From Craspedostauros australis (lineage: Eukaryota > Bacillariophyta > Bacillariophyceae > Mastogloiales > Achnanthaceae), in the NCBI GenBank assembly GCA_026770025.1, contig JAMXDE010000019.1, positions 1,240,001 to 1,304,000 on the forward strand: a DNA stretch of 64,000 bases. Reading direction: 5' to 3'. Positions 1 through 40,844 of this stretch are shown here, in pieces (positions within the stretch are counted from its first letter, which is position 1; every line of letters begins with the position of its first letter). The translations under genes and the position numbers were made by a program. Below the pieces are notes generated by a model. The model made no database searches. It had not been told where the DNA came from and saw only the letters and a list, made by a program, of their open reading frames with translations.

Positions 1-3000
1 CATGCTTTTGATCCTTGCTCGGAGGCATAATCTCGATGCGATGTCTTGGATTGCCACTTCTGCGATCAGATGCGAGAACGGACAGCAACCTTGCGCCTTC
101 GGGCAGCTGCTTCAACAGAGGGCGTCTCCAGCTGGATGCCTCGATGTCGTAGCACGTGGCTTGCATGTTCTTGTCCTTGGAGGTGTACTCGATCGGCTTC
201 ACTGGCACATCCTCGAACACGATGCTCATCTGCGCCTGCCTCGATTGCCTGTGTTTGCTTGTGAAGGCCGCGGTTTGGAGTATATCGATGAAATCGATAT
301 TTTGGATTTCGGACACGACACCTTGGAGAGAGATGCGGAAGGGGTGATTCTTGCTATCTTTCGCCTTCTTCTTTGCGTTTTGAGATGCTGGGTCGAAACT
401 CCATGTCAAAGACGCTTCGGTGGCATGATTGGCGAGGAAGTCTCGCAGCAGTGCAGTCGCGAACAGCAAGTCCACTTCGTCATCACTGTCATAATCGTGC
501 ATGTAGAGGCCCTCGGGCTCTTTGCATGTGATCTTTGTGATGATCCGAGTGGAAGTCCTGTCCCCATCCTTCGCCTTCGATTCTTCATCGAATTCCTGGA
601 CGTTCCACTTTCCGCACTTGCGTTCTCCAACTCCTCGCACTTTACCTTGATTCTGCGTTGCGTGCAAGGTTGAGGTTTTGAAGCCCAACGTGGCATCGTT
701 CAGTTTAGACTCAAAGTCCTCGAGAAAGCGCTTGTACGCCTCATCTTGTCCAGGTGCGGAGCATCTGTACAAGTATACAGCGGATGGCGCCAAGACAAAG
801 ACGGTCTGGATGTTACATTCCAGCGCGTAGCTGAGGATGCGCGCTTCGAACGTCGGCCAAAACCCAGACCTCATCTGGTTGGATGAGATACTGCCATTTT
901 GCGTGACGTTGCCGTCCCTGCGCAGTTTGAAGGGATGGCGTTTCGACAATACTTTGCTCATCAGCTCGTTATTGATGACGTCTCCACGAAGGGTGAACGT
1001 GACGGTGCCATCAGTCTGGGGCTTGAGGTCGGTCGTTGGGCACTCGATCATGGTCTCGGCGAAGACCCAGGCCTGCAGCACGCGCAGGAGCGTGATCTTG
1101 GCGTGCGGCATGAGCACGGGTGGCGCCTGCAGCTGGAGTCGTTCCTCATTGATACCCAGGAAGTTGGCAGTGCGTTTCACCAAGCTCGAATGGGTCGCGG
1201 CAAGCTGCTTCATACGCTGCGCCTGCACCGAGAACGTGTTGCACCAGGCGTGCTTGTTGCGTGCCATGTTGAAGTCCCACATGAGGTTCATCAATCCGAA
1301 CGGATCCGAACAAAGGTTGGCATCGAAGTGGGATTTGGCGACGTACGACTTCATGGTGATATGGTTGAAATCGTCCGGTTCCATGTAGAGCGCGTTGGCC
1401 ATGCGGAAGGGTGTTTTGACGCCGGACATGGCGGCGACCATCGCGACGGCCTCCGCCGCGACACCAAATTGAATACCCAGCCCGATCAACGATCCGAGGG
1501 AGAGATCGACGCCGGCATGCGAGACGAACATGCCGAGTCTCGTGATTTCGGCATCGTCGTTCGGTTCGGTCAAAAAGTCCCACTTGTGCAAGCTCTGGAA
1601 GGATCGTTCGATGGTCCCGATGTCGGGCGGTTCTATGCAACCTTGCAGGACTGGCGTGATCTCTTCCTGCAGCATCTCCTTCAGCATGAGGATGACGGAA
1701 TCCAATGGAATTCGGACCATCTCGCCTGCCTCGAATGCATCAAAGTACTGTTCGAATGCCTTTCTGGTGTAAAGGCGATAGACGTTGCCCGGCCGCACGC
1801 GCCCGGTGCGTCCCGCACGCTGCGTGGCACTGGCCTTTGAGATCCAACATGATGTGAGCATCTGGCGATGGCTGTTGGCATTGTACACAATCTGCTTGCA
1901 CAGTCCCAGGCAGATGACGTGGTCGACGTCGGGGAGCGTGACGGAGGATTCGGCCGCATTGGTCGCAATGACGATCTTGACTTCCTTCTTGTTCTCTGGT
2001 GCCTTGAAGGCCAGCATCTGATCCTCGAAGGGGATGTCGGAATGGATGGGGTAGCACACGAAGTCGCGTCCCGTGATGTGCAGATCCTCGATCTCCTCCG
2101 TGATGGCGACGATGTCTCCCATGCCCGGCACGAAAATGAGGACGGAAGAACCTGGCTTGCCCACGATGGCAGCGAGTTGGGCCGCCAAGACGTATCGGCG
2201 CGTCATGCCCTGGGCGTTGGGAGGGTTTTTGCATTTCTGCTTCTCGCACTCCTGTACGATGGTGTCGGTGGCCTTCTTGGATGCGTTCGTCAAGCCGCCG
2301 ATGCGCGCAATATCCTCGATGAAGTGCTCCTTGATGGGATGACGACGCACGCCGACATGGATGGGCGGGTTGGCAATATTGAAGTACTCCTGGTACATGG
2401 AGGCCGCGATGGTGGCGGACATGAGGACGAGACGGATGGTCTTGTTCGTCGTCATGAGACGACGGCACAAGAGACAGAGGATGTCCGTATCGACCGATCG
2501 CTCATGCACCTCGTCGATGATGAGATGGGAGCAGTCTTTGAACTTCTCGGGATGATTGGCCAGAAGACGCGTGAGGTATCCCGTCGTGACGAACCACGCG
2601 CGCGTCTTCTTGGTTTCGTACTCACGGACGCCATGCCCCATGCGCAACGCAAAGGCGTCCTTGAATTCCGGCTCGCAGTCGCGCACGCGCTCGACGAGGG
2701 ATTTGGCCGCGATACGGCGTGGTTGCGATATGAAGAGCTTAATGTTGGGCAGATCGGCATCTGGCGGTGGCGCACGCAGCAGCATGATGGGCAGGCGGCT
2801 AGATTTGCCACATCCCGTCTCGCCATGGATGATAGTGATACGGTTGTCGCGGATGTGATCCACGATCTCTGTCTCGTGGGCATCGATGGGCAGGACGAAG
2901 CTTTTCTTCTCCCCGGCGGCTGGCGTTGGTTCTTCTTGCTCTTCCTCCTCATACTCTTCCTCCTCGAATTGCGTCTGAATTGCTGCCGCTGCCGCTTCTT

Positions 3001-4804
3001 CCTTTCTGAGTCGCAGCTGCACCATGGCCGCGAAGAAGGCATTGTGATCAAAGATGGTGTGCGGCGGCGACACGACGGCCAGGACGGCATTCTGTCGCAG
3101 CCTGGTGGCTGCCATGATGCAGGATTCAATGAGACACGCGGCCTGCAGGTCCTCCACTGCGGGCGGGGTATTGAGGTCGCCGGGACTCTTGTCTTGCTGC
3201 TGAAACACCTTGAGATGGCCTTGCGTGATGAGAGCCGGGCGACCATGATGTCCATCGATGTTGTTGTCGATGTAGGATTGCAGGGCTCGGACGATCGGCG
3301 CAATCAAGGATGCGTCGGAGGCTTCGGCCGCCAGGAGATCGCCGGGAAAGTTGGGCGGAAATCCGACATGGATTCCATCATGTTCCATATCGTCATCGAG
3401 GCTGTTATCATCATCATCATCATCATCATCAAGAGTATTGCCTTCAACAGACTCAATTGGAAACTCGGACAGATCGTGCAGGTCGTACCACGCCTCAACG
3501 AAGCGCATGGCGGCGAGGAGCTCGTCGCTGCCGCTCAAGGCGATCATGGGACGCACGGAAAAGGAGGACTCTTGCTGTTGCAAGAAGTCAATAGGACTGG
3601 CGTAGTCCTTCTTGGAAAATACTTTGTCTCGCAGACCGTCCATGTAGTCGTTTCCCGCGAGGTATGCCAAGTCGATCATGTGGTGCTCGTCGGAGAGCTG
3701 CAGGACCTCCGTGGCGAGGATGGAACGTTCGAAGACGCAGGCGGAGATCTGGCGGCGCGGTTTGTTGTTGTTGTTGTTGTTGGATGCGGGCGCACTGCCA
3801 CCAAAGAAACCAAAGCCACCCCTGGTCTCGGTTGTGGCGGAGGCGGCCGTTGGCATGGGCATGAAGGGCGTGACGGCGATGGTATCCATGGGAACGTACT
3901 GAATTCCCTTGAAGAAGAAGAAATCCGAATCCTGCCCCACGACGTAGGCCGTGGGATCGTTGTGCGCCATCTGCGCGAGATACAGATCGGCCTCCTCTTC
4001 CGACACGACCTGCTCCACCCTGGACTGGCGCAACGCATGGCGCACCTGCGTCGTCGTCATGCGCGCTCGCGGCAACTCTGACTTCCAGCACGCGCAGAGG
4101 CACGTCGTCGTCTTGGCGGCCTTGGGCACGGCGCCGTGCTGGCAGTAATGATGCAACGCAGACCATTCGTCGTCGATGTACGTTTTGCGCTTGTCCATCG
4201 TGGCATCCTTCTGCGGCCGCCGCAACGGTCCGTCCCACACGACCTTGACGGTGATGCCGCATTGCTGCACGAGGATGTCAGCGAACTCCCGCACGACGTC
4301 GTCGACGATGTGCATGGGCAGCATGGGCGGCAGCAGCCGGTTGATCTGGGCCGTCGTCATGTGCTTGAGCGCCTTCGTCGTGAGGCAGCTGCCGTCGCTG
4401 ACGATCCTGCCCAGCTTGGGGTCGTCCTTCAGCACCTGCTGCACGTAACGGGCGTACGCGACGGCCTCCAGGTAGAACGAGAGGCCGTTGCCGTCGATCC
4501 AGAACGTGGATCCCGGCGGGATGCTTCGTTCGCTGGGCAGCGCGTCTGTTGCGGCTGCGTCTGTTGCTGCTTCAGCGGTGGACTCTGCGGGAGCTTGCGC
4601 AGGAATGGGCTTCATGAAACTCAGCAGCATCTGACCGAAGCCGGTGCCTTTGGCGTCAGCATGCGCATGATCAGGCGATGGTGACGAGGATGGGTTCGAG
4701 GACGCCTTGGAGCGGAAGATGTCCGTCGAACAGCCACAATTCGTGGAGGTGCTGTGCAGCCACCCGCTGAGCTTCAGCAATCCTGTGATGCCGCGGACGC
4801 CCAT
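1..4804 (-). CDS. Asteroid/FEN-like nuclease fused to DExH-box RNA helicase (3' end beyond window)
   Basis: One frame stays open from the ATG at 4804 to the window edge, about 1,601 codons without a stop or intron. The start MGVRGITGLL matches the FEN/XPG/Asteroid N-terminus. Acidic positions of that nuclease fold follow: DGNG near residue 104, WDG near 190, EEEAD near 270, QDSDF near 292 and AGNDY near 384. An eight-residue Asp run near 459 and a Glu-rich stretch near 610 form a linker. The helicase half has GETGCGKS (Walker A, 661), SQPRR, DEVHERS (764), SAT, and QRAGRTGR (995), followed by an HA2-like region. By family knowledge, the first half should cut structured nucleic acid and the second should unwind RNA or RNP using ATP. 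I know no described protein with this pairing. The C-terminal end is not visible. Confidence 0.9.
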   Translation of the reverse strand, partial: MGVRGITGLLKLSGWLHSTSTNCGCSTDIFRSKASSNPSSSPSPDHAHADAKGTGFGQMLLSFMKPIPAQAPAESTAEAATDAAATDALPSERSIPPGSTFWIDGNGLSFYLEAVAYARYVQQVLKDDPKLGRIVSDGSCLTTKALKHMTTAQINRLLPPMLPMHIVDDVVREFADILVQQCGITVKVVWDGPLRRPQKDATMDKRKTYIDDEWSALHHYCQHGAVPKAAKTTTCLCACWKSELPRARMTTTQVRHALRQSRVEQVVSEEEADLYLAQMAHNDPTAYVVGQDSDFFFFKGIQYVPMDTIAVTPFMPMPTAASATTETRGGFGFFGGSAPASNNNNNNKPRRQISACVFERSILATEVLQLSDEHHMIDLAYLAGNDYMDGLRDKVFSKKDYASPIDFLQQQESSFSVRPMIALSGSDELLAAMRFVEAWYDLHDLSEFPIESVEGNTLDDDDDDDDNSLDDDMEHDGIHVGFPPNFPGDLLAAEASDASLIAPIVRALQSYIDNNIDGHHGRPALITQGHLKVFQQQDKSPGDLNTPPAVEDLQAACLIESCIMAATRLRQNAVLAVVSPPHTIFDHNAFFAAMVQLRLRKEEAAAAAIQTQFEEEEYEEEEQEEPTPAAGEKKSFVLPIDAHETEIVDHIRDNRITIIHGETGCGKSSRLPIMLLRAPPPDADLPNIKLFISQPRRIAAKSLVERVRDCEPEFKDAFALRMGHGVREYETKKTRAWFVTTGYLTRLLANHPEKFKDCSHLIIDEVHERSVDTDILCLLCRRLMTTNKTIRLVLMSATIAASMYQEYFNIANPPIHVGVRRHPIKEHFIEDIARIGGLTNASKKATDTIVQECEKQKCKNPPNAQGMTRRYVLAAQLAAIVGKPGSSVLIFVPGMGDIVAITEEIEDLHITGRDFVCYPIHSDIPFEDQMLAFKAPENKKEVKIVIATNAAESSVTLPDVDHVICLGLCKQIVYNANSHRQMLTSCWISKASATQRAGRTGRVRPGNVYRLYTRKAFEQYFDAFEAGEMVRIPLDSVILMLKEMLQEEITPVLQGCIEPPDIGTIERSFQSLHKWDFLTEPNDDAEITRLGMFVSHAGVDLSLGSLIGLGIQFGVAAEAVAMVAAMSGVKTPFRMANALYMEPDDFNHITMKSYVAKSHFDANLCSDPFGLMNLMWDFNMARNKHAWCNTFSVQAQRMKQLAATHSSLVKRTANFLGINEERLQLQAPPVLMPHAKITLLRVLQAWVFAETMIECPTTDLKPQTDGTVTFTLRGDVINNELMSKVLSKRHPFKLRRDGNVTQNGSISSNQMRSGFWPTFEARILSYALECNIQTVFVLAPSAVYLYRCSAPGQDEAYKRFLEDFESKLNDATLGFKTSTLHATQNQGKVRGVGERKCGKWNVQEFDEESKAKDGDRTSTRIITKITCKEPEGLYMHDYDSDDEVDLLFATALLRDFLANHATEASLTWSFDPASQNAKKKAKDSKNHPFRISLQGVVSEIQNIDFIDILQTAAFTSKHRQSRQAQMSIVFEDVPVKPIEYTSKDKNMQATCYDIEASSWRRPLLKQLPEGARLLSVLASDRRSGNPRHRIEIMPPSKDQKH

Positions 4805-4877: not shown

Positions 4878-5649
4878 TATTATATGATATCCATAATGAT
4901 TTTGGCCTGGTACTGGCCTACGCAGCTTGCGTCCGGACGCAAATTGGAGGTGCAGTTTGCGTCCCCACGCAAATTGGGCCAATTTGCGTCCGGACGCAAG
5001 CGGCGACTCAAAGGACTAGCCCAAATACGCTTTACGAGAAGCCGTTTTTTTTTCAAACCCTTTTTCGCTGGCCATCTCGACTCACGACATGACTCATGTC
5101 TTACATCGATAATAATCGCTGCAGTTGTGGTAATTGAACAAACAATAATCATGATTCGTGTCCCACCCTCCTTGTTGTGTTACGCCGTTGCCAGGATTTT
5201 GGTGTTGTTGTCAGGATCGTGGTGGATGACATCAAAATCAAAAAGTAAAAGATTATTACCTCAGATCCCATGACGTCGAGAAAGAAAGACAGGCGCACGG
5301 AAAGGAACCCCTGAGACATGACCAATGACGCCGTGCTGTATCGTGGGCTTTTTTTTTTGGAAATCGCCAAATAAATGCGTTACTCGAAGGAGTCAGAAAA
5401 AAAAACAACCCACTTTCGGGTTTCGGAGCGAAATCGGTTTTTTTTTTCTGCAACACGGGACATCGTGGAGGAACATGGGACTTAAGTAGTACAAGTGGTA
5501 TTTTCGGCGAGCTTGCATTTGCGTCCCCACGCAAATTGGCCCAATTTGCGTCCGGACGCAAACTGAGCGTTCAATTTGCGTCCGGACGCAAGCTACGTAG
5601 AGAATGCGTCCGGACGCAAGAAAAACGTCATTATGGATATGGTATAATA
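4878..5649. repeat. Palindrome-rich fold-back-like element
   Basis: Two blocks (about 4928-5003 and 5516-5622) hold the perfect 16-bp palindrome TTGCGTCCGGACGCAA four times, plus one 14-bp version near 5605. The variant TTGCGTCCCCACGCAA occurs once in each block. Neighbouring units are joined by ATTGG/CCAAT, so they can form larger hairpins. The outer edges (4878-4900 and 5627-5649) are inverted copies of each other around ATATCCATAATGA. I found no clear target duplication. This may be a non-autonomous fold-back transposon. It may instead be a regulatory array, because it starts about 75 bp upstream of the helicase ATG. Confidence 0.7.
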
Positions 5650-6289: not shown

Positions 6290-7435
6290 ATGGCGAAGCT
6301 CCGCAAAGGCCACAAGACGGCAGCAAGGCGCAAGAAGCGTGACAATGACAACGCCGACGCTGCTTCGCCCGTGGATGCGGATGACGCGCACCCATCCTCA
6401 CCACGCAATTCGAGACTTCTGCAGTTAAGGGACTTCTTGCGATTTGCCTTGCTGGGGATCTGCCTCGGAACTGTGGTGCGTCAAGTCTTCTCGGTTGTCG
6501 AGAAATCGGGTGCACCAACGACGGTCAAGCCACATGAGGTGGGGCAGGTCAGTCAAGCAGGGCGGGCCAAGCATTTCATGTTCGGGACGTTCGGACATGT
6601 GAGACGCAAGAAGAAGGAACGGGAGGCGGGTGCCGAGCAAGCGGATGGCGCAGCAACAAACCTTGTCACAACTGCTGCACCTCCGGGCCCATTCCAACCG
6701 TACGATTGCACGCCGGCCATCAATTCTGTGCAAGTCCCATTCAGTCGAATTACCATCGATCTGCCATACACCACCAAACTCGACTTCGACTTCGCCGCAG
6801 ACTACACCCGTCCAAGCCATGACATCAACATGTACGGCACACATCACGCCTCCAGCATCGGCGCCATGGACTCCATCTTGCAAGCCGCCAAAGGCAAGTC
6901 CACCTACGTCTTCGTCGACGTCGGTTCCGATATGGGATGGTACTCGGCCTGCGCTGCACACTTTGGCATTCAGTCCTACTCCTTTGACTTGAGCGATCAC
7001 AGCAACAACCTCTTCTGTCGCACCATCGATTTCAACAAGGAGAGATGGCAGGCCAACGTGCCCGTTATCTACTCCCATATCATTGACGGCGCGGACCACT
7101 CGTTGGACGCCTTCGCCACGCATCAAGGCTGGATGCCAGAGGGTCCCGACATTCTGTTGCAAGTCGATACGGATGGCAATGACAAGGAAATTTGGGATGG
7201 TGCCAAGCAGCTCGTACAGTCACAGCGCGTCAAGCATATCTTTTGGAATATGATGCCGAAGATGGAAGCGACCGTCCAGATGCTTGTCGATAACGGCTAT
7301 CAGCTGCATGCGCAGGGTCGAGACAGAGGGTTGGATGTGATCTTTAACACGCCGCTGGATGCTGTTGTGTACGGTAGTCAGGTGCGCACGCCGAGATTGA
7401 CGTGGTGGGTGCACAGTTCGGCGCAACCTTTGTGA
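6290..7435 (+). CDS. Membrane-anchored FkbM-type methyltransferase, copy 1
   Basis: This encodes 381 residues. A Lys/Arg-rich N-terminus (1-50) precedes one hydrophobic helix (about 46-66, FLRFALLGICLGTVVRQVF), suggesting a type II anchor in the secretory pathway. A basic linker follows. The catalytic-like domain contains FVDVGSDMGWYSACAA (SAM-binding glycine loop, about 205-220), a SYSFDLSD strand, and ILLQVDTDGND, which matches the K-I-D-x-E-G region of FkbM methyltransferases. Members of that family usually O-methylate glycans or small molecules; the substrate here is unknown. A second copy lies at 41815 with nearly identical central sequence. Homology continues about 70 bp past the stop, so the duplication is at DNA level. 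Confidence 0.75.
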   Translation: MAKLRKGHKTAARRKKRDNDNADAASPVDADDAHPSSPRNSRLLQLRDFLRFALLGICLGTVVRQVFSVVEKSGAPTTVKPHEVGQVSQAGRAKHFMFGTFGHVRRKKKEREAGAEQADGAATNLVTTAAPPGPFQPYDCTPAINSVQVPFSRITIDLPYTTKLDFDFAADYTRPSHDINMYGTHHASSIGAMDSILQAAKGKSTYVFVDVGSDMGWYSACAAHFGIQSYSFDLSDHSNNLFCRTIDFNKERWQANVPVIYSHIIDGADHSLDAFATHQGWMPEGPDILLQVDTDGNDKEIWDGAKQLVQSQRVKHIFWNMMPKMEATVQMLVDNGYQLHAQGRDRGLDVIFNTPLDAVVYGSQVRTPRLTWWVHSSAQPL

Positions 7436-14739: not shown

Positions 14740-17031
14740 ATGCCACCCATGAAGAAAGACATCCTCGCTCTCGTCATCGCACAGAGCATCATCTGCAATG
14801 GCGTCGATGCCGTGCTCGACACGAGCGGTCGTACCAAGGTCGCCACCGATCTCAACATCGATGTCGACATCAACGCTCTTCAAGCGAAGTTCGCCAAGCT
14901 GGCAGCTGAGCACAAGGCCAAAATCTTGGCGTTCAACTCCGCACACGGCGACAACACCAAGATCGCAGCACAAGACACTGAGGACAAGGTGAACATGCTC
15001 CTCTCTGACACCTCCTCCATGCCCAACATCGACCATCTTGTTCCCAACTTCAAGGAAGCCAGCACTAAGACAGAGGCCAATACCAAGACAAGCAACTTCC
15101 ATCGTCGACGTGCCACCTCTTCCACCAACACCAAGAGCGAGGACAAGAACAAGCTTGAGCGCAAGCTTGAGCACAAGTTCACCGATCTTGGCCGTCTTCA
15201 AGGCGCCACTGGTGATGTCGAGAAGGGCGCGTTGCTTGCGTCCATCGCAGAACTTCATCCTGAGAAGACGGTCGAAATCCTCAATGTTCACAACCGCCAG
15301 CTCAAGTCCCCCAAGTCTGAGAAATCGTCATCAAAGGGAGCCAAGTCTGAGAAGTCTTCCAAGTCCAACAAGGCATTCAAGTCCTGCTTCACTGGAACGG
15401 CCGAAGATGTCACCGCGAAGTGTGCAGACGAGGAGGCTAATTGCTGTCAAGCACCAGACAATGAGATAGCTCCCGCGTGTGTGTGGGGCAGCGACCGACA
15501 CGTGACGGTGTGCCCCAACTCCTGCAATGACAATTACTCTTGCGCATTCAGTCCCAACGAGACAACGGCCATCACGATTGCTCCCTATGCTTGCAACGGT
15601 GTGGAAGCCTGTGCTGACATAGAGATATCAATTCCTTCTTACGCTTGCAATGGCCTCAGCAGTTGCACACGCAACACCGGTAAAGTCAATGAGCATTCTT
15701 GCAACGGCTACGGTAGTTGCTTCGACAACTCAGGCGATATCTCCGCATTCTCATGCATCGGGGAGGCTTCGTGTTACCAGAATGGGGGGGACATTAGTGA
15801 AAATTCTTGCACCACAGACGGAGCATGTTTCCTCAACCGAGGCGACGTCAAGGAAAACGCGTGCGTGGGATATATTGCTTGCGCCCAGAACGAAGGAGAT
15901 ATCGCAAACGGAAGTTGTGTCGGTGAAGCTCCGTGCGCCCGAAACACTGGTAGCGTCGCCGCGGGGTCCTGCGGAGGTGAAGATGCGTGCATCCAAAACA
16001 CTGGTCCCATCAGCATGGGATCCTGCATTGGAAGGCGTGCATGCGACAAGCAGACTGGTAGCGTCGCCGCGGGGTCCTGCCACGGTGAAAATGCGTGCAT
16101 CCAAAACACTGGTCCCATCAGCATGGGATCCTGCATTGGAAGGCGTGCGTGCGGTGTGCAGACTGGTAGCGTCGCCGCGGGGTCCTGCCACGGTGAAAAT
16201 GCGTGCATCCAAAACACTGGTGCCATCAGCACGGGATCTTGCATTGGACCCACTACGTGTGCCATCAACAGAGGCGTGATTGCTGCAAACTCCTGCCTCG
16301 GCAACTTAACTTGCGCCGGGAACGCTGGCGACATCGGCCAGGACTCCTGCGAAGGTGAAATTTCCTGCTTCCAAAACACTGGTACTATCAGCATGGGATC
16401 CTGTGTTGGACCTTCTGCGTGCGCCATTAACACAGGCATGATCGCTGCATACTCCTGCCGTGGCAACTCAACTTGTAGCCAGAACGCTGGCGACATCGGC
16501 CAGGACTCCTGCCAAGGCCCATTCGCCTGCATCGGCAACGAGGCCGACGTGGGCACCGGGTCGTGCTACGACTTCGCAGCATGCTACCGCAACGCCGGAA
16601 TGGTAGGGGACGGAGCCTGCCGTGGCGACTCAACTTGCGACGGGAACGCTGGCGCCATCGGCCAGGACTCCTGCCAAGGTCCAATCGCCTGCTATGGCAA
16701 CCAGGCCGACGTGGGCATCGGGTCGTGCTACGACTTCGCAGCATGCGGCTTCAACACCGGAATGGTAGGGGACGGAGCCTGCCGTGGCAACTCAACTTGC
16801 GCCGGGAACGTTGGCGCCATCGGCCAGGACTCCTGCCAAGGCCCATTCGCCTGCTATGGCAACCAGGCCGACGTTGGCATGGGGTCGTGCTACGAAAACA
16901 GAGCATGCGGCTTCAACACCGGAATGGTAGGGGACGGAGCCTGCCTCGGCAATTTCTCGTGTTTCAGCAACTCTTACGTCATCCCCGATGGAGAGTGCAT
17001 CGGTGTTGGAGCGTGCGGTGTGGTGCCATGA
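14740..17031 (+). CDS. Secreted protein with about 25 tandem 18-residue Cys-rich repeats
   Basis: This encodes 763 residues. The N-terminus has a hydrophobic stretch (about 7-25) that may be a signal peptide. An acidic/Lys-rich region (30-215) and an SKSEKSSSKG-type segment follow. From about residue 280 to the end the chain is a tandem array with an 18-residue period and the pattern [SA]C-x-G-x-x-x-C-x-x-N-x-G-x-[IV]-x-x-x. The two Cys are six apart and an Asn-x-Gly turn is conserved. Regular short repeats with paired Cys suggest a disulfide-bonded solenoid, perhaps a beta-helix, in the wall or outside the cell. At DNA level the 54-bp unit is well preserved in parts (15950-16230), pointing to recent unit duplication. 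Similar repeats exist in diatom proteins of unknown function. Confidence 0.8.
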   Translation: MPPMKKDILALVIAQSIICNGVDAVLDTSGRTKVATDLNIDVDINALQAKFAKLAAEHKAKILAFNSAHGDNTKIAAQDTEDKVNMLLSDTSSMPNIDHLVPNFKEASTKTEANTKTSNFHRRRATSSTNTKSEDKNKLERKLEHKFTDLGRLQGATGDVEKGALLASIAELHPEKTVEILNVHNRQLKSPKSEKSSSKGAKSEKSSKSNKAFKSCFTGTAEDVTAKCADEEANCCQAPDNEIAPACVWGSDRHVTVCPNSCNDNYSCAFSPNETTAITIAPYACNGVEACADIEISIPSYACNGLSSCTRNTGKVNEHSCNGYGSCFDNSGDISAFSCIGEASCYQNGGDISENSCTTDGACFLNRGDVKENACVGYIACAQNEGDIANGSCVGEAPCARNTGSVAAGSCGGEDACIQNTGPISMGSCIGRRACDKQTGSVAAGSCHGENACIQNTGPISMGSCIGRRACGVQTGSVAAGSCHGENACIQNTGAISTGSCIGPTTCAINRGVIAANSCLGNLTCAGNAGDIGQDSCEGEISCFQNTGTISMGSCVGPSACAINTGMIAAYSCRGNSTCSQNAGDIGQDSCQGPFACIGNEADVGTGSCYDFAACYRNAGMVGDGACRGDSTCDGNAGAIGQDSCQGPIACYGNQADVGIGSCYDFAACGFNTGMVGDGACRGNSTCAGNVGAIGQDSCQGPFACYGNQADVGMGSCYENRACGFNTGMVGDGACLGNFSCFSNSYVIPDGECIGVGACGVVP

Positions 17032-23776: not shown

Positions 23777-26257
23777 TTAGACTGTAATGGTCAGTTCACT
23801 TTCGTCGGAGTTGATTGTACTCTCATCATCCTTCCCATGAAATACATTCCAGTGCAGCTTACAGACATGGATTCCACACACACTGCACATCCTTCTGACT
23901 CTGCTTGGTTCATGTGCTGGCCTGCCTTCGAGCTTTGCTTTTGCTTTAAGATAAGAACAGTATCTGCAAGTCTTCTGGCTTCCGTCCCTGCTGATGATCT
24001 CCTTGTGATCTTCGAATCTCCCCTCCAGCCTCGATCTGGGCAGCTTTGGAGAGCAGGGGCTCATCCGATTCCTTGTTCGAATGGTGTGTGGGACTCTCTG
24101 GTGGCTTGCCCTTGTTGCCATCAAATCTGCTTCATTCCCTTTGCGGACCAGAGCCTCAATCATCTCGATCATGAATGCCTTGCTCCCCAATCGATCTTGC
24201 TCTCTTGCCAGGTGACTGAATGCAATCCAAGTATTGACGCGCATGATGTCGAACAAGTGGAACATGAGGGGCATCCATACTCTCCGAGCCCTCAAGTCAG
24301 GGCGATAGTATGCGATGAGTTGGTCGCATTTGTCAACTCCAAGCATCCAATGATTGTAGTCATCAATCATCTTCGGAATTCGGATGTGTGCAGAGTACTT
24401 GCTCCCCCAGACCATCTCCAAGTGCCCTGCATTCACCTTGTTCTTTCTTGGCTTGTGACGATTGCAAAGGACTGACTCGTTCCCATGGTGCACCGTACTG
24501 ACCATCAACACCACATTGTTGTCAATCCACCTGGCCACCACGTACTGATTGTTCTCAATCCAGACATAGAGTGAGTTGAAGCGCATGTCCTCAACCTCCT
24601 TCACCTCTGTGCTGGGGAATCCATTCCTCCTCCTCGCAGTGCCAACAACTCCGATGCCCATCTCTCTTGACTTCGCCATGACTGTCTTGGTTGTGAAGAG
24701 GTTGTCCATTGCAACAACATGGTGATTCGTTGGGTCCAATGTCTTCATGAGCTCCTCCACAGTGTTGTTGATTTTTGTTGTTGTGTCCAGACGTCCTGCA
24801 GGCAGTACATGATATCCAAATCCAGTCTTCGAGCAGCACAGAGCATAGAATTTGTACCCCTCTTTGATGGGTTTCTGCTTCATCCGAGTGGTCTGCCTGG
24901 ACCTGCCCTTGAATCTCACCATCATCTCATCAATTGCACAGACAAAGCCTGGCTTGATGCAGATACTCTTTGACACCTGGTTGACGTGGTCAAGCAGTGG
25001 TTGGATCTTGTGATACCAGCTTCTGTTGGTGTCAACAATTGGTGTAGGAGGAGTGGGGGGCTGTGTGTGCAGGGTTTGGTTGCTGCCTGTGCATGTGGAG
25101 CTGCTCAAAGTTGCAGACCGACTTGACGGAGAGCAGCTGCTGGCCGTTACACTCATGAGAGATTCATATCGGCTCTGGATGAGATCGTCTTCGCTGTCAC
25201 TGATATCCTCATCTTCCGAGTCAGTGGCATTGGTTGTATCAGAAGCAACTGCATTCCTCACAGCTGAGAAGTGAATGTGGTTCCACACAACTTCATATCT
25301 TGCTCGTGTCATGTACTTTGTGAGCAGGTGGGATGGTACACCAATGGACGGGGCGCGCCAATAATCCCGCTTGGCTGGTGCCTTGAAGACTCCCATGTAG
25401 TAGTAGATTGCAAGGAAGAGGTAGATCTCCTTCACTGAAACAAAGCTGGCCGTGGATCCACTGTTGAAGATATGGTTGTTGGTGTGGACTTGCATGGACT
25501 TGATGAGTTGCCGTGAGAAGTAAACCTCCAGGATGGTATCAACTGATGGGTTGAAACCTCCAACTGACCGGAAGAGTGGCTTGTGGGAACTGATGGGGAG
25601 TGGTGCATAGGCAACATTGTTGTCGGCTCCATGCACAGGAATGGCTGTGCCATTCACAGCAGTTGCTCCATTGTTGCTGGCCGTGCCGTTGCTGCTGGCT
25701 GTGCCATTGTTGCTGGCTGTGCCATTGTTGCTGGCCGTGCCATCATTGCTGGCCGTGCCATTGTTGCTGGCCGTGCCATTGCTGCTGGCCGTGCCATTGT
25801 TGCTGGCTGCGCCATTGTTGCTGGCCGTGCCATTGCTGCTGGCTGTGCCATTGTTGCTGGCCGCGCCATCATTGCTGGCCGTGCCATCGTTGCTGTTGTT
25901 GGTTGCAATCGGGCCACTCCTCTCGTTTTTTCTTCCGCACCTCAACGCAAGTTTGCGTTTGAGGCGCTCGATAATGCGACTGCTGCGCCTGTTGCTTTCA
26001 ATTATGCTTGCAGTGGTGGTACCAGCCACACTGATGCAGGCACTGTTGCCATTGCATACTCTCTTGCTGCTTGCAATTGGTGCTCCTGCGGAACGGTCTC
26101 CCGTCACTCCATTGGTAGCATGAAGGGATTTTCTCCGATTGCTGTTGAGGAATACCACGAAGGGTTTGGCACAATTGTAGCTTGCCGCGCCATTGGAAGA
26201 AGGCTTGGATGCTTTGGCACGCTTGGATGTGGGAGAAGCCGGAGATGATGCAGGCAT
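23777..26257 (-). CDS. piggyBac-family transposase (open reading frame)
   Basis: This encodes 826 residues from the ATG at 26257; the frame opens farther upstream without an ATG. A disordered Ser/Asn-rich N-terminus contains a (NNGTAS)n array (25660-25900). The DDE_Tnp_1_7 core has the three catalytic Asp: CAIDEMMVRFKG (443), VVAMDNLFTT (518) and LGVDKCDQLIAYYRPD (642). The C-terminus is a Cys/His zinc ribbon, CRYCSYLKAK...MCSVCGIHVCKLHWNVFH, typical of the family. The enzyme would cut and paste an element at TTAA. All catalytic residues and the zinc ligands are present, so it could be active. A decayed relative lies at 35245-37015. Confidence 0.93.
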   Translation of the reverse strand: MPASSPASPTSKRAKASKPSSNGAASYNCAKPFVVFLNSNRRKSLHATNGVTGDRSAGAPIASSKRVCNGNSACISVAGTTTASIIESNRRSSRIIERLKRKLALRCGRKNERSGPIATNNSNDGTASNDGAASNNGTASSNGTASNNGAASNNGTASSNGTASNNGTASNDGTASNNGTASNNGTASSNGTASNNGATAVNGTAIPVHGADNNVAYAPLPISSHKPLFRSVGGFNPSVDTILEVYFSRQLIKSMQVHTNNHIFNSGSTASFVSVKEIYLFLAIYYYMGVFKAPAKRDYWRAPSIGVPSHLLTKYMTRARYEVVWNHIHFSAVRNAVASDTTNATDSEDEDISDSEDDLIQSRYESLMSVTASSCSPSSRSATLSSSTCTGSNQTLHTQPPTPPTPIVDTNRSWYHKIQPLLDHVNQVSKSICIKPGFVCAIDEMMVRFKGRSRQTTRMKQKPIKEGYKFYALCCSKTGFGYHVLPAGRLDTTTKINNTVEELMKTLDPTNHHVVAMDNLFTTKTVMAKSREMGIGVVGTARRRNGFPSTEVKEVEDMRFNSLYVWIENNQYVVARWIDNNVVLMVSTVHHGNESVLCNRHKPRKNKVNAGHLEMVWGSKYSAHIRIPKMIDDYNHWMLGVDKCDQLIAYYRPDLRARRVWMPLMFHLFDIMRVNTWIAFSHLAREQDRLGSKAFMIEMIEALVRKGNEADLMATRASHQRVPHTIRTRNRMSPCSPKLPRSRLEGRFEDHKEIISRDGSQKTCRYCSYLKAKAKLEGRPAHEPSRVRRMCSVCGIHVCKLHWNVFHGKDDESTINSDESELTITV
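25663..25895. repeat. 18-bp coding minisatellite
   Basis: About 12-13 tandem units of a sequence like TTGCTGGCCGTGCCATTG (plus strand) lie within the transposase N-terminus, encoding Asn/Gly/Thr/Ala/Ser repeats on the minus strand. The frame is maintained across all units. Confidence 0.85.
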
Positions 26258-29003: not shown

Positions 29004-32000
29004 ATGAGCAACCAAGGAGAAGACACGAGCATCAGCAGCGAAGAACGCCGACTGGAGGCTTTCGTGGAGCGGCTCAACCAACAAGCCGCTCAAGCCCTTC
29101 GAGATCTCAACGAATCACGAATCTCGCGAGGAGCTACCCCCATCCCAGCTCAGCAAGGGGGCCAAACGGCCACCGGGCAAGAAGAGGGCGGCGTCGCCCA
29201 AGGCAACACCGGGGATGCCAGCGACCCACCGAATCTTGGTGAAACCGAGGGAACCGCTAGACGCGAAGGCAACGTCGACAACCAAACTGGATCCACTGGA
29301 GGTGGCTTCCCTTTTGAAGCCGACGAAGACCCCATCGGACCTGAAACCACGTACGTAGCGTACGAAAGCGAAGACAAGCCAGAGAAACCCATCATGGGTG
29401 GTCTCACCAAGGCTGGTCGTCACTGGGTGCCCTGGACAGGAGGGAAGCCGAACGTCGAATGGACAGGCCTCGCTGAAGACGCAGCCCTGTCCTACGACAG
29501 CTCCCAACAGCAGCGCGTCCTCCACAACGGCTCCGACTCCCAGAATCAACCGGAGCGAGAGAAAGGCATCCGCCCACGCTTCCGGATTGGAGACAACCGC
29601 CAGCGCATGCTGCGCCTCCTCAAGGACCACATGTCCACTGCAGGTCTCATCTCGATGACCTACATGAGGAGCAACGAACACCCCAACGAAATGGTGTGCG
29701 TCCTTGACGCTCCAGGCAGCACCACCATCAGCCAAGCCACCGACCACCACGACGTCTATCGCCACTTGTGGGATCGATACGACAAGCAGAACAACGCATC
29801 TGCCGCTCGATTCCTCCGCGACAGCCTTGACCCCGACCTCGAAGACCGCTTGATGAACCGCATCAAGCCAAAGTACCAACAAGACTTCAATGTGATCTTC
29901 ACCGAACTCATCAAGAGTATCACTTCAAGCTCGCTAGACAAGTACGCACGGCTCCAAGAGAAGGTCAGAAAGACCACGCCCCAGAAGTTCCAGGGAGAGA
30001 ACATCCAAGCCATGGCTGACGCTCTCCGCATCATGTGCAAGGAACTTCAAGACGCCGACCAGTTCGAGATCTCGCTCCTCCGTACCATGACAGATAACTT
30101 CTTCATGGCAGGAGGAAGAACCACGTCAGGAGAACGATACCGTCATCGAATCCTTGACATCAGCGATCGACTCAGACGACTGATCGAAGACAAGTCCCTC
30201 AAGACCTACGAGCGAGCGGAGCCCCACCTGCTCCGTGCGGACCTCACCTGGATGGACATTTGCAGCGTGGCTGAGGATGCTTATCTTGACGAGCTCCAGG
30301 GAAACTCCTGGCATGCCAACAGGCACTCCCGTGACCGCAACACCCCTCGCATGCATGCAAATCACTCCTCAACTACAAAGGAAGCTCGTCTTCTGGAACA
30401 GAACAAAGGAGGCAAACGCATGAACGCCAAGGGCAAGCAGGCCACCAAGAAAACACAACAAAAGAAGGACCTGTGGATCACATCTCCCCCACGGAAGGGT
30501 GAGCCACAACAGAAGCTCATGAACGACAAGACCTTCCACTGGTGCGCGAAGTGCCGCCACTGGCGCATCTCCCACGGCACTGCCGGCCACATCGACGATT
30601 TCAAGCACAAACCAAACAGTCCACAGCTCGAAATCGACCATGCAGCATGGACCTGCCTTTCCGCTGAAGCCCACGCAAACGAACGCTCCTGGTGGACCGC
30701 CGTGTGGAACGTGTTCACCGCCTTCGAAACCATCAACATCGTCACCGGCACTTTTCTCCTCCTTTGTGCAGCACAAGTCGCTCTACTCGGCATCGAGTGC
30801 GGATGGCACGTGATGAGCATCATGATGTGGATGACAACAGCCGTTGTGCTATTCGCCCTTCACACCAACGTTCCACGCCAGTACCAGCCAACTCCAATGC
30901 GAACCATCCGCCAGATCAACACATGGAGGAAGAAGCAAAAGAAGTCCAATAGAGCTAGCCAAAGCTTCTATCACTACCCGGCAACACCCTCGAACGATCT
31001 CTACGACTCTCTGTTCGGGAACAACGACTTCAAACGTTTTCTCCTTCACAAGCGCACCAACGCCAAACGCCACGTCCCACGTCACGCCCCATGTGCGAAC
31101 CACCAAAACAAAACTCGCCATGTTCGCCGGTTCCGAAAACACCAAAACTCCTGTCGCGCGCGAAACAAAACGAATCCCGCTCATCCACCAAACCGGTACA
31201 CGAAACATCATTGCGACATCGACCACTTAAGGACTTCCACTCGCTCCATGCGTACGTCTCACACAGACCCAAGTGAACGCGCAGGTACCAACTTACTGAC
31301 CAGCGCCTACCACACCCTCGCTACAACCTTCGGTTTCCAACATGCTTTCGCCGCACCCCACAAGGTGGAAGGAATCATCCCTCAAGACGGCTCCTTCGAC
31401 GTGGTGTGGGACACCGGCGCCTCCATCTGCGTGACCAACGATATCAACGATTTCGTAGGTGCTACCTCGGCACCAACCTCACCAACCTTCCTCAATGGAT
31501 TTCTTCGACGCACCAAGGTAAAGACGAAAGGAAGAGTGGAATGGTCCATACTCGACATCAGCGGCAGCCCTCGATCCTTATCCCTTCCAGCCTTCTATGC
31601 GCCGGAGTCCTCAGTCAAGCTCATCAGCACCGCATGCCTCCTCAATGAGTACAAAGGGGAAAACATTGTCGTTGAAGCAAACAACATCCAGCTGAGCGGC
31701 ATCCCTGGAAACGACGAACGAGGTCCCATCATCGCCCACAACAAGAAATCGAACAACCTCCCGACTTCACGTGCATACCGCACTGGCGACCTCACCGAAC
31801 TCCCAGCGGCGCTCACCACAACTGTTACTTCCGTGGCAGAACAGAACCAAAACCTGACCCAACCGCAAAAGGAGCTGCTCAAGTGGCACTATCGACTCGG
31901 GCACCTCTCCTTCAGACGAGTGCAGTTCTTGCTCCGATCCGGCGCCCTCATCAACACTGAGGCATCACGGAAGATTCAAACAGCCGCTGCCCGCGTACGA

Positions 32001-33230
32001 GAATGCCCGCTGTGTGCGGCCTGCCAATTTGGCAAACAGCATCGCAGAACGACACCAGGTACAACACAACACGCCGTCCAAGACCAACAGGGAGTGATCA
32101 AAACGGATCACCTCTTCCCGGGTCAGCAAGTCTCCGTGGACCACTTCGTGGGACGCACCTTGGGCCGCCTCTTCACAGAAAGAGGCAAGTCCGATGCGTC
32201 GGAGATGTACAAGGGTGGCGCAATGTTTGTGGACCACGCATCTGGCTACATACACGTGGAGCCAGTCGCATCCCTCACGACCCACGCTACGTTGGAAGCC
32301 AAGGAACGCTTCGAGTCCATGTGCCGCGATGTGGGTGTGCCCGTGCGCTCGTACCTCTCGGACAACGCCACCACCTTTACATCGCCAGATTACACCGAAC
32401 ACCTCAAACGGTTTCATCAAGTGCACCGTTTTGCTGGAGTCGGCGCTCACCATCACAACGGAGTGGCCGAGCGCAGCATCCGCACGATCATCTCTATGGC
32501 ACGAACCATGATGATGCATCAAAGCATTCATTGGCCTACGATGTTCGATGCCCAACACTGGCCCATGGCCGTCGTCCATGCCGCTTACGTACACAACCGC
32601 GTACCAAGTGCAGCAACAGGACTCACGCCTTTGGATATTCTCTCGCGCACGCGCATGCCCCTGAAACAGCTACACAACCTACATGTGTGGGGCAGCCCCG
32701 TCTACGTCTTGAACAAGGCGCTCGGCGACGGCCGCAAGATACCAAGATGGGAACCACGTGGGGAGCGCTATGTAAACATGGGACTCTCCGCTCGCCACGC
32801 ATCCACGGTTCCGCTGGTCCTCTCGCCGAGGACAGGATCAATCACACCACAATTTCACGTTGTGTTTGACGATTGGTTTGCGACGATAGCGACTGATTTG
32901 GCTGACCTCCCAGACTACAATTCAACGGAATGGACGCACATGTTCGGTGATACCACTTATCAAATACCGTTTGACGACGACGACATTATTGCTATGGAAG
33001 AGCGGGACATCGAGCGAGAGGATGAAGCCGACCATCAACGATTCCTCCCCTCACACGATGATGACCCGCCGCCGCAGCTGTTGCCAAAAACGCAAAACAC
33101 GAGAACCCCCGATTGTAAGACCCCGTTCAGGGTACGATCGTACGATCCTGCCGATTTTTTATCGGACAACATTACTTTATTAGCACACGGTGTAGCGTGT
33201 TTTCGAATAGGCTTAGATATATTTAGCTAG
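29004..33230 (+). CDS. Copia ORF1: gag, aspartic protease, integrase
   Basis: 1,408 residues from the first ATG (MSNQGEDTS); the frame is open upstream without an ATG. Residues about 1-500 are gag, with a Cys/His stretch WCAKCRHWRISHGTAGH near 510. Two hydrophobic segments near 562-619 are unusual in a gag. Protease: VVWDTGAS with Asp at about 803. Integrase: WHYRLGH...CPLCAACQFGK zinc-binding part (about 961 on), then catalytic Asp in VDHFVG, Asp in LSDNATT and Glu in NGVAERS, the last two separated by 35 residues (DD35E). The last roughly 36 residues are encoded by the inserted element (from 33119); the original frame would have ended at TGA directly after ...TPDCK. It makes the virus-like particle and integration machinery. 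Confidence 0.92.
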   Translation: MSNQGEDTSISSEERRLEAFVERLNQQAAQALRDLNESRISRGATPIPAQQGGQTATGQEEGGVAQGNTGDASDPPNLGETEGTARREGNVDNQTGSTGGGFPFEADEDPIGPETTYVAYESEDKPEKPIMGGLTKAGRHWVPWTGGKPNVEWTGLAEDAALSYDSSQQQRVLHNGSDSQNQPEREKGIRPRFRIGDNRQRMLRLLKDHMSTAGLISMTYMRSNEHPNEMVCVLDAPGSTTISQATDHHDVYRHLWDRYDKQNNASAARFLRDSLDPDLEDRLMNRIKPKYQQDFNVIFTELIKSITSSSLDKYARLQEKVRKTTPQKFQGENIQAMADALRIMCKELQDADQFEISLLRTMTDNFFMAGGRTTSGERYRHRILDISDRLRRLIEDKSLKTYERAEPHLLRADLTWMDICSVAEDAYLDELQGNSWHANRHSRDRNTPRMHANHSSTTKEARLLEQNKGGKRMNAKGKQATKKTQQKKDLWITSPPRKGEPQQKLMNDKTFHWCAKCRHWRISHGTAGHIDDFKHKPNSPQLEIDHAAWTCLSAEAHANERSWWTAVWNVFTAFETINIVTGTFLLLCAAQVALLGIECGWHVMSIMMWMTTAVVLFALHTNVPRQYQPTPMRTIRQINTWRKKQKKSNRASQSFYHYPATPSNDLYDSLFGNNDFKRFLLHKRTNAKRHVPRHAPCANHQNKTRHVRRFRKHQNSCRARNKTNPAHPPNRYTKHHCDIDHLRTSTRSMRTSHTDPSERAGTNLLTSAYHTLATTFGFQHAFAAPHKVEGIIPQDGSFDVVWDTGASICVTNDINDFVGATSAPTSPTFLNGFLRRTKVKTKGRVEWSILDISGSPRSLSLPAFYAPESSVKLISTACLLNEYKGENIVVEANNIQLSGIPGNDERGPIIAHNKKSNNLPTSRAYRTGDLTELPAALTTTVTSVAEQNQNLTQPQKELLKWHYRLGHLSFRRVQFLLRSGALINTEASRKIQTAAARVRECPLCAACQFGKQHRRTTPGTTQHAVQDQQGVIKTDHLFPGQQVSVDHFVGRTLGRLFTERGKSDASEMYKGGAMFVDHASGYIHVEPVASLTTHATLEAKERFESMCRDVGVPVRSYLSDNATTFTSPDYTEHLKRFHQVHRFAGVGAHHHNGVAERSIRTIISMARTMMMHQSIHWPTMFDAQHWPMAVVHAAYVHNRVPSAATGLTPLDILSRTRMPLKQLHNLHVWGSPVYVLNKALGDGRKIPRWEPRGERYVNMGLSARHASTVPLVLSPRTGSITPQFHVVFDDWFATIATDLADLPDYNSTEWTHMFGDTTYQIPFDDDDIIAMEERDIEREDEADHQRFLPSHDDDPPPQLLPKTQNTRTPDCKTPFRVRSYDPADFLSDNITLLAHGVACFRIGLDIFS
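33119..33161 (+). repeat. Left terminal inverted repeat of nested element
   Basis: It pairs with 37655-37697 on the opposite strand. It also supplies the altered 3' end of copia ORF1. Confidence 0.8.
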
Positions 33231-37847: not shown

Positions 37848-40844
37848 ATGTCGCTGACAGAGGGAGCCGGAGAAGGTCCACCAAATCACGCTGAACCGTT
37901 GCCGCCAGCAGAGGGAGTCGTCAACGAAAACAGTGACAACAACGTACAACCACCAATCGACTCTCCTCCGACTTCACCGCTGCGCAAACCCATCACCGCA
38001 CCGACAGAGCAACCGACGATTAGAAAGGCAAAACCGCCTCCACTACGCCGCTCTGAACGCATCAACAAGCGCACACCACGAGAACGACGGACCGTCGAGC
38101 GCCTCACCTACGACACGTTGGGTGGAAAAGTGGTTTGGGTCGACGACATCACACAACCATCAAAAACCAGCGCAAACGTAACCACCATCGCGACGAGTGA
38201 ACCCAGCAAAGACCAAGCCATGGAAAACATGAAGCACGCTCTCCAAACCTGTCGTGCGACACTCAGGCAGTACGCTACTCATCAAGATGGCGCAGTAACA
38301 CAGAAGACAAACGCTCTGGTGCGCGACACTGACTCCATGCTCCGAGATCTAGCGACAATCGACACCACAGAATTGACCCGGGAAGAACGGCGCTGGGCGC
38401 AGGGCGACCTCGAGATGGAAAGGATGCTTCGCATCCAACAACTCGAAATCCGAGCCAGAATGCGCAAGGAACAAGAAGAGGCGGCAGCAAGCGGAGGAAC
38501 GCCAACCAACGAGCACCACATCCTCATGATGAGCAACCACTCCGACTCGTCCTCGGAGGACGACGATCCACTTCCAGGCACCACAATGCACCCCATCGAC
38601 ATCAGCCACCTTTGGCCACACCATGTCAACATCACTCGACACATCGGCCAATACTTCGATCATGTAGTGCAATTTCGATTTCCAACGGAAGCCGCAAGGA
38701 GCCAGTGCGTTTACTACGCCATTCGCCGATTCGTCGATGCCGTCGAAGAAATGCTCGAAACAGGCGAATACCACCTCCCCGTCTCATACTTCAGCTTCAT
38801 ACCAAGAACGCAAGGTCAGCGATACACCCTGGAACGGGCCATCGCCGCCATGGAAAATGGCCTACGACCACCGGACGAAGACGAACGGGTGCAGGACTTC
38901 ATGCGACGAGCGGGTTTCGCCTGGCACCTCATTACGCACGACGAGCGTTTTGAAATCGGTATACTGCACCTGCACATCCAACTCGGCGTCGCGCCGGAGG
39001 TACCACCGACAATCATGGCTCCGCCAAGCGAATTCGAACCGGCCGAACACCGTGCTTCAGCTCCGACAAACGCTCACTTTCCACGCCAACATGAGAATGA
39101 CGAGTCCGACGAACACTACGCGTTGGCTGCAACCCTTGAGCACGATGGTGACGACCACATCGACGACCACCGCGCCTTCATCACGTACGACTTGCTCAAC
39201 TTCTTCACGACCGGGGGCGATCTCAGCATCTCGGATCGACACGTCAGCTACAAAGCATCCAAGACCGATCCCGACACCCTCTCCTTCAGCAAGGCGATGA
39301 ACGATGACAACAAACAAGAATGGATGGCAGCCGCACACAAAGAAATTCATTACCTTACCAAAAAGGGAACTTGGATTGAGGTGCCAAAATCCACCACTAC
39401 TGATCGCATCTTCCCTGGCACGTGGGTGTTTCGGCGCAAGCGGATGCCCGACGGCACGGTAAAGAAGTACAAGGGGCGGTGGTGCTGCAGAGGCGACATG
39501 ATGACCGAAACGGAAGCAACTTACGCCCCGGTCGTTGCCTGGTCCTCTGTTCGCGTCTTCCTCATCCTCTCCATTTTGCTTCGCTGGATCACGACATCAA
39601 TCGATTTCTCAAACGCGTTCGTACAAGCCGACATCCATCGTCCGGTATACCTACACCTTCCACGCGGATTCCGATCAACCAACGGACCCGATACATGCCT
39701 CAAGCTGATCAAAAGCCTCTATGGGTTAACTATAGCTCCCAAGCTATGGTACCAACACCTTGTGCGTGCTCTCCTCGCGGAAGGATTTCACGCGTGTGAT
39801 CAAGAACGGTGCCTGTTCATGCGCGATGGGATGATGATCGTCCTCTATGTGGACGATGCCGGCATTGCTTCGCGCACGGAAGAAGAAGCAGACGCATTCA
39901 TTGAGTCCATGCGTAAGCGCGGATTTGATCTCACACAAGAAGGCACCTTCACGGAATTTCTGGGAATATTGCTACACAGAGATCCCAAGAACAACACCAT
40001 CCACCTCAAACAAACCGGCCTCATCAACAAGATCATCGACGCTACAGGCATGCAAGACTGCAAACCCAACGTGACACCCAAAACACAACTTGCCCTTGGA
40101 GCATCGAATGATCAACCCCCAATGAAGGAGGCATGGAACTATCGCTCCGTCGTTGGCATGCTACTCTACTTGACTACGAATACACGCCCCGACCTGGCTT
40201 TCGCCGTCTCTCAAGTGGCGCGATTCAGCAACGACCCTCGCCAACCACACGCAAAGGCAATCAAGATGATAGTGCGCTACCTTCGCCACACCAACACCAT
40301 GGGAACCATCGTGCGTCCGACGGGTCAACTCAACCTGGAATGCTACGTTGATGCCGATTTCGCAGGCCTGTACAAGCGCGAGACCGACGACTCTCCAAAC
40401 GCAGTACGCTCCCGCACAGGGTATGTCATCATCCTCGGTGGCTGTCCACTTGTGTGGAAATCGAAGCTGCAGACAGAAATCGCCTTGTCCACAATGGAAT
40501 CGGAGTACGCCGCGCTGTCTCTCGCTATGCGCGCCCTCATCCCGATGCAACAACTCATCAACGAAGTGAAAGCAACAACCAGCCTCAACCAATCGCTGCA
40601 AACCAACATCCAGTGCACCGTGTTTGAGGATAACGAGGCGTGTATCTCACTGGCAACGAAGCACAAGGTCACGGCACGAACCAAGCATTTCCTAACCAAG
40701 TGGCACTTCTTCTGGCACTGGGTCAAGGAGGGTTTCATCCGGATCCTTCACGTGCCGACACCCCACCAAATTGCCGACATCTTCACCAAAGGCCTCGCGC
40801 GGGACGCGTTTGAGCATCTGCGCCGTATGCTTATGGGGTGGTGA
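37848..40844 (+). CDS. Copia ORF2: reverse transcriptase and RNase H
   Basis: This encodes 998 residues. The first roughly 450 residues are a long polar, partly acidic extension without a recognised domain. The RT domain follows: EWMAAAHKEIHYLTKKGTW, GTWVFRRKRMPDG, YAPVVAWSSVRVFL, SIDFSNAFVQADI (first catalytic Asp), LIKSLYGLTIAPKLWYQHL and MIVLYVDDAGIA (YVDD near residue 666). RNase H: CYVDADFAGLY, LSTMESEYAALS, VFEDNEACISLA and HVPTPHQIADIFTKGL. All catalytic acids are present. It copies the element RNA into DNA. RT being separate from the integrase ORF is unusual for copia, which normally makes one pol polyprotein. If the split is original, a recoding or separate-message mechanism would be needed. 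Confidence 0.93.
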   Translation: MSLTEGAGEGPPNHAEPLPPAEGVVNENSDNNVQPPIDSPPTSPLRKPITAPTEQPTIRKAKPPPLRRSERINKRTPRERRTVERLTYDTLGGKVVWVDDITQPSKTSANVTTIATSEPSKDQAMENMKHALQTCRATLRQYATHQDGAVTQKTNALVRDTDSMLRDLATIDTTELTREERRWAQGDLEMERMLRIQQLEIRARMRKEQEEAAASGGTPTNEHHILMMSNHSDSSSEDDDPLPGTTMHPIDISHLWPHHVNITRHIGQYFDHVVQFRFPTEAARSQCVYYAIRRFVDAVEEMLETGEYHLPVSYFSFIPRTQGQRYTLERAIAAMENGLRPPDEDERVQDFMRRAGFAWHLITHDERFEIGILHLHIQLGVAPEVPPTIMAPPSEFEPAEHRASAPTNAHFPRQHENDESDEHYALAATLEHDGDDHIDDHRAFITYDLLNFFTTGGDLSISDRHVSYKASKTDPDTLSFSKAMNDDNKQEWMAAAHKEIHYLTKKGTWIEVPKSTTTDRIFPGTWVFRRKRMPDGTVKKYKGRWCCRGDMMTETEATYAPVVAWSSVRVFLILSILLRWITTSIDFSNAFVQADIHRPVYLHLPRGFRSTNGPDTCLKLIKSLYGLTIAPKLWYQHLVRALLAEGFHACDQERCLFMRDGMMIVLYVDDAGIASRTEEEADAFIESMRKRGFDLTQEGTFTEFLGILLHRDPKNNTIHLKQTGLINKIIDATGMQDCKPNVTPKTQLALGASNDQPPMKEAWNYRSVVGMLLYLTTNTRPDLAFAVSQVARFSNDPRQPHAKAIKMIVRYLRHTNTMGTIVRPTGQLNLECYVDADFAGLYKRETDDSPNAVRSRTGYVIILGGCPLVWKSKLQTEIALSTMESEYAALSLAMRALIPMQQLINEVKATTSLNQSLQTNIQCTVFEDNEACISLATKHKVTARTKHFLTKWHFFWHWVKEGFIRILHVPTPHQIADIFTKGLARDAFEHLRRMLMGW

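Follow-up and report, generated by a model that had tools for sequence, protein, structure and literature searches.

The locus

We have analyzed a window of 64,000 nucleotides, which is positions 1240001-1304000 of contig C17 in a genome assembly of 74.8 Mb and 90 contigs. At one end of this window lies part of a reverse-strand gene whose product appears to combine a nuclease domain of the FEN/XPG superfamily with a DExH helicase. The gene starts at an ATG at position 4804 (MGVRGITGLL), is free of stops within the window and runs on for 2036 bases beyond window base 1, to its end at G000:C17:1237965. On its own contig the ORF is complete (G000:C17:1237965-1244804, 2279 amino acids plus stop) and without a visible intron; the open frame as a whole comprises 2304 codons. 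The features of the locus are as follows.

2..4804, reverse strand: in-window part of the fusion ORF (residues 1-1601), from the ORF and its coding signal
4484..4501, reverse strand: WIDGNG, residues 102-107 (D104), from the motif position, with the ligand role assigned by eye
3626..4270, reverse strand: putative FEN/XPG-superfamily nuclease core, residues 179-393 (D191, E271, D273, D292, D294, D386), from a profile of the genome's own FEN family
2885..3457, reverse strand: linker, residues 450-640, with acidic tracts at 459-466 and 614-625, from the sequence and continuous coding signal
2309..2887, reverse strand: helicase RecA1, residues 640-832, with motifs I, Ia, Ib, II (DEVH) and III (SAT), from Pfam, PDB matches and motifs
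1796..2161, reverse strand: helicase RecA2, residues 882-1003, with motifs IV, V and VI, from Pfam, PDB matches and motifs
1373..1498, reverse strand: HA2 ratchet-like segment, residues 1103-1144 (E 0.012-0.038, below cut-off)
2..1117, reverse strand: C-terminal region, residues 1230-1601 in the window (to 2279 outside it), with no Pfam or NCBIfam match over cut-off
4887..5640, no strand assigned: MITE-like repeat with inverted arms, a neighbour outside the protein, from repeat analysis

Reading frame and coding signal

An earlier note on this DNA had proposed that one uninterrupted frame links the two domains, and this proved to be the case. The fusion gene stays open over 6837 bp, far more than chance would allow; in the five remaining frames of this DNA there are 15, 48, 54, 62 and 96 stops. 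Codon log-odds, with eight other ORFs of this genome as the training set, ranked the frame of the gene first in all 28 windows of 80 codons, the linker included; these windows cover residues 1-2240 and leave the last 39 residues of the protein unscored. Across the linker the own-frame scores are 0.41 (residues 401-480), 0.32 (481-560) and 0.34 (561-640), and in this stretch two of the other frames score negative. The motifs named in the earlier note (DGNG, EEEAD, QDSDF, AGNDY, GETGCGKS, DEVH and QRAGRTGR) were all located, in the nuclease part within or at WIDGNG (102-107), SEEEAD (268-273), QDSDF (291-295) and GNDYMDG (384-390), and in the helicase part at GETGCGKS (661-668), DEVH (764-767) and QRAGRTGR (995-1002). 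Although the linker has acidic low-complexity tracts and the fusion comes so far from one genome only, it is highly improbable that the fusion is only apparent and reflects an assembly join, separate genes or an intron hidden in the frame, given the length of the open frame, the positive in-frame scores through residues 401-640 and a contig of 1.38 Mb; a misassembly is unlikely in particular because a chance join would have to preserve the frame and bring no stops. The sequence thus supports the presence of a FEN/XPG-superfamily nuclease domain and a DExH helicase in a single frame.

The nuclease-like domain

The N-terminal domain had been described as FEN/XPG-like, and profile comparisons agree with this. 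Residues 179-393 match a profile built from five other FEN-family proteins of the same genome with an E-value of 4e-10 in a set of 740 rows; the best of 500 shuffled sequences reached 0.39 and the best other ORF of the window 0.68, and the sole further row below E 0.1 was the same protein as the window ORF. In profile-profile comparison (hhalign) the probability was 90.8% for residues 1-633 and 92.7% for residues 90-440, against at most 2.1% for 100 shuffles and 0.1-0.2% for three pieces from the rest of the fusion protein. A Pfam scan of residues 1-633 with E-values up to 10 returned two matches only, both of the same superfamily: XPG_I_2 (PF12813; E 6.8e-4, 19.7 bits against a curated cut-off of 24.2) and XPG_I (E 7.2e-4, 20.4 bits against 24.9). 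The match of the first 450 residues to XPG/Asteroid profiles that the earlier note had called for exists, but in both cases below the curated cut-off. The fusion locus was absent among the XPG_N matches at E<=1, a genome-wide search with XPG_I_2 gave no match, the fusion locus included (control genomes were silent as well), and phmmer with residues 1-633 against the PDB found, at E-values up to 10, no FEN relative and one beta-glucosidase (E 1.8). Taken together, membership of residues 179-393 in the FEN/XPG superfamily is supported at the level of sequence profiles.

The domain is divergent and has polar inserts, among them a long one rich in small and polar residues before WIDGNG (residues ~16-95). 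The acidic residues that had been expected to bind metal are nevertheless in place: all seven positions are acidic (D104, D191, E271, D273, D292, D294 and D386), and we equate them with the seven metal ligands of FEN1 from the profile alignment and the numbering of FEN1. Six of these acids lie within aligned motifs; D104 lies outside the profile match and was placed by eye (MAFFT aligned it otherwise), and we take it to be the first metal ligand, at the position of FEN1 D34. The H2TH segment of FEN1, EXO1 and XPG grips duplex DNA. After GNDY no such segment is recognisable in the fusion protein when aligned by eye, where its row reads DKVFSKKDYAS. At this site the genome's own FEN1- and XPG-like proteins have the turn GVG, the GEN1-like protein NVG and a further paralog (L013) RNG, and in every case the turn leads into a helix with Ala or a similar residue; the comparison comprises these four relatives, since the fifth, an EXO1 exon, ends before the site.

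Within the superfamily, the domain is likely, if unproven, to be Asteroid-like. It shares with Asteroid and ASTE1 an N-terminal FEN/XPG core, the MG- start, the acidic set and a weak match to XPG_I_2, a domain reported for every protein of one study's insect asteroid cluster (PMC7598268, excerpt). The strings DG...K..T...R and YVPMDTI also look Asteroid-like to us. The label Asteroid, as given in the earlier note, is suggested by the XPG_I_2 match, but the score falls below the family cut-off and is level with that of the general XPG_I. Mkt1, ASTE1 and FAM120 have been proposed as one class within Rad2/XPG on the basis of Foldseek comparisons, and Mkt1 is described with a helix-3-turn-helix (both PMC12345631, excerpt). 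This element is not recognised in the fusion protein, and because Mkt1 itself has it, the lack of the turn does not speak for Mkt1. MKT1_C (PF12246) had no match in the fusion protein or the genome, and the control genomes were silent too. The Asteroid, ASTE1, FAM120 and Mkt1 proteins are described as having a PIN-like domain and a C-terminal half that is long, with no helicase mentioned (PMC12345631, excerpt); the fusion protein differs from them in its DExH helicase.

The helicase and the C-terminal region

The full DExH core claimed for this gene is borne out. Pfam DEAD (residues 645-801, E 3.7e-10) and Helicase_C (882-1003, E 5.5e-13) both score over their cut-offs, and motifs I to VI are complete and in order in a core that extends over residues 640-1144. 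HA2_C falls below its cut-off, there is no OB match among those listed, and NCBIfam HrpA/HrpB match far below their cut-offs. The best solved relatives are DHX29 (2.8e-59), RNA helicase A or DHX9 (2.9e-58), Spindle-E (7.8e-57) and DHX36 (1.7e-54). The fusion protein resembles this group in its complete helicase motifs and, more tentatively, in its HA2-like segment, and differs from it in being very divergent and in carrying a nuclease domain. Its best PDB score is 204 bits (DHX29; 978 amino acids used), compared with 394 and 371-387 bits for two other, longer DExH frames of the genome (1333 and 1498 amino acids used). In a tree of the genome's own paralogs (9 of 14 rows, five of 500 amino acids or shorter having been dropped) it groups with L051 with support of 89/91, on a long branch of 6.03 changes per column. 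By these sequence comparisons the helicase is a very divergent DExH protein, and we assign it to none of the named subfamilies (DHX29, DHX36, DHX9, TDRD9). The C-terminal region ends in a Lys/Gln-rich tail; a weak match to DDHD in this region (E 1.4) was rejected as chance.

Related genes and known fusions

Among the 28 matches listed in a search of the protein's own genome, the only full-length one is the fusion locus; the others cover the helicase part. Residues 1-633 had one other match in the genome at E-values up to 1, a 53-residue acidic stretch. The genome contains FEN1-, XPG-, GEN1- and EXO1-like genes, the names being our reading of their sequences. A fifth FEN-family gene (L013 1-2355, reverse strand, on G000:C63) has a long acidic, polar tail.

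No confirmed relative was found by tblastn in viral contigs (queries P0003, P0002 and residues 255-395), prokaryote genomes (P0002) or phages (P0003). A degenerate FEN pattern picked out 27 viral loci, and none of their 232 ORFs of at least 150 amino acids had a FEN1-like match. These blank searches say little, because few eukaryotes are represented in the collections and searching by pattern was blank even with the genome's own FEN1, though XPG_I is present in four archaeal control genomes. The architecture may occur widely and have escaped study.

The earlier note knew of no characterised protein with this pairing. For a FEN/XPG nuclease joined to a DExH helicase this stands, in that our searches of open-licence literature turned up no description; the broader combination of PIN domain and helicase is known from bacterial PhoH2, in which an N-terminal PIN-fold nuclease is fused to the PhoH RNA helicase (PMC7824862, excerpt). 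The likeness is in this arrangement, but PhoH2 has an SF1-related ATPase (PMC7824862, excerpt) and the protein described here is eukaryotic, 2279 residues long, and joins a FEN/XPG-type nuclease to an SF2 DExH helicase. No PhoH-type ATPase was matched by Pfam in the fusion protein, which has DEAD and Helicase_C instead. The PIN domain of PhoH2 is of the short kind. PhoH2 is an analogue of the fusion protein and not a relative. In Dicer, eukaryotes have an SF2 helicase fused to an endonuclease that acts on double-stranded RNA; its nuclease is RNase III and its helicase RIG-I-type, unlike the FEN/XPG-type nuclease and DExH helicase found here. Piwi loci were matched at two and RNase III loci at three sites in the genome, and one locus of each kind has stops inside the match, so that these may contain introns or be broken copies. 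The genome may thus have a small-RNA pathway. With its own Piwi and RNase III loci the genome lends no support to the fusion protein as a Dicer replacement, a part that it would not have to play.

Possible functions

The reading that we tentatively prefer, with a probability of roughly 0.4, is that this protein of a nuclease, an acidic linker, a divergent DExH helicase and a basic-tailed C-terminus acts on RNA, which it would unwind and cut. The basic tail and the helicase would bind structured or double-stranded RNA, and the helicase would move along one strand, opening the duplex; characterised DExH enzymes move 3'->5'. The acidic linker, probably flexible, would join this part to the metal-dependent nuclease domain, most likely Asteroid-type, which would cut the exposed strand at the junction of single and double strand. 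The single frame with its continuous coding signal, the superfamily membership, the seven acids and the full set of helicase motifs favour this reading, as does the coupling of a PIN domain to an RNA helicase in PhoH (PMC7824862, excerpt). RNA is suggested by the closest solved relatives of the helicase, which are RNA-type DExH enzymes, and by links to RNA among related nucleases. In one moth, RNAi improved when an XPG-type REase was suppressed (PMC7598268, excerpt); silkworm Asteroid is induced by double-stranded RNA and its knock-down raises virus load (PMC10298989, excerpt); Mkt1 and FAM120A have roles connected with mRNPs or miRNAs (PMC12345631, excerpt). We counted several points against this reading. 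REase knockout in a second moth brought no improvement of RNAi, so that the moth genetics differ, and REases cluster apart from asteroid proteins (PMC7598268, excerpt); ASTE1 and FAM120B are reported DNA-repair nucleases (PMC12345631, excerpt); and the nuclease matches in Pfam are below cut-off, with no FEN-type match to this locus from the XPG_N, XPG_I_2 genome and PDB searches. What the sequence shows is one coding frame, the domain membership and the catalytic motifs; that RNA is the substrate, that either domain is active, that the two are coupled and that the protein has any role in RNA turnover or in defence against repeats or viruses is inferred.

Two other functions are serious rivals to action on RNA by unwinding and cutting. 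The nuclease-like domain might only bind, as may hold for Mkt1 and FAM120A, so that the protein would be a non-cutting scaffold and a DExH factor of translation or mRNPs. The divergence and polar inserts of the domain are compatible with this, as are the mRNP roles of Mkt1 in the proposed Rad2/XPG class of Mkt1, ASTE1 and FAM120 (PMC12345631, excerpt) and the fact that the helicase is closest to DHX29, a translation factor (PMC5832417, excerpt); the retention of acids at seven of seven positions, for which a dead scaffold has no need, speaks against it, and it seems rather unlikely. We consider unlikely, too, a role in DNA repair, in which the helicase would open R-loops, G-quadruplexes or DNA ends and an Asteroid-type domain in the same chain would trim the displaced DNA in the manner of ASTE1. 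The core does lie within a structure-specific superfamily, nuclease activity and repair roles are reported for ASTE1 and FAM120B (PMC12345631, excerpt), and DHX9 and DHX36, among the closest helicases by sequence, have both DNA and RNA as substrates (PMC5832417, excerpt). However, genes resembling FEN1, XPG, GEN1 and EXO1 are already present in the genome, together with one more FEN-family paralog, and the segment that grips duplex DNA is, by eye, unrecognisable in the fusion protein.

In its strongest form, the preferred reading of RNA unwinding and cutting makes the protein the representative of a eukaryotic enzyme class that has not been described before, with an Asteroid-type FEN nuclease that is active and a DExH helicase working as a single machine on structured or double-stranded RNA. 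Such an enzyme would have arisen independently of Dicer and PhoH2, as their analogue, and might be directed against the RNA of transposons or viruses; this we regard as doubtful. Provided that it is active, the fusion protein would join helicase-nuclease machines such as those two as an analogue of FEN type. The substrates of the Asteroid/Mkt1/FAM120 branch are uncertain, and a natural fusion to a DExH helicase is a 'Rosetta-stone' hint that members of this branch work with such helicases.

Surroundings of the gene

The MITE-like repeat lies 82 bp upstream of the ATG of the fusion gene and possibly touches its promoter. Its arms are inverted, 82 nt long and 89% identical, and it contains the palindrome TTGCGTCCGGACGCAA in four exact copies and one with a single mismatch (0.00 expected). 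In a hand count, with 40 of 89 candidates scored, no fewer than 35 further copies were nearly full-length, with identities of 86-100%, and the family has therefore probably been active recently. The window has 16 ORFs of at least 330 amino acids; Pfam was run on 10 of these and gave matches for 4, of which 3 are transposon-type. An 826-residue ORF at 23777-26257 (reverse strand) matches the DDE_Tnp_1_7 transposase (E 3e-46), presumably piggyBac-type, and long forward-strand ORFs at 29004-33230 and 37848-40844 carry gag_pre-integrs and RVT_2, as pieces of Ty1/copia-type retroelements. A forward-strand ORF of 381 residues (6290-7435) had no Pfam match at E-values up to 0.001 and looks to us like an FkbM-type methyltransferase. 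The convergent neighbour of the fusion gene (L009 1266-2366, forward strand) resembles, in our reading, a plant-type GDP-mannose 3,5-epimerase, and a 763-residue ORF at 14740-17031 (forward strand) matches the uncharacterised domain DUF7640 in six stretches.
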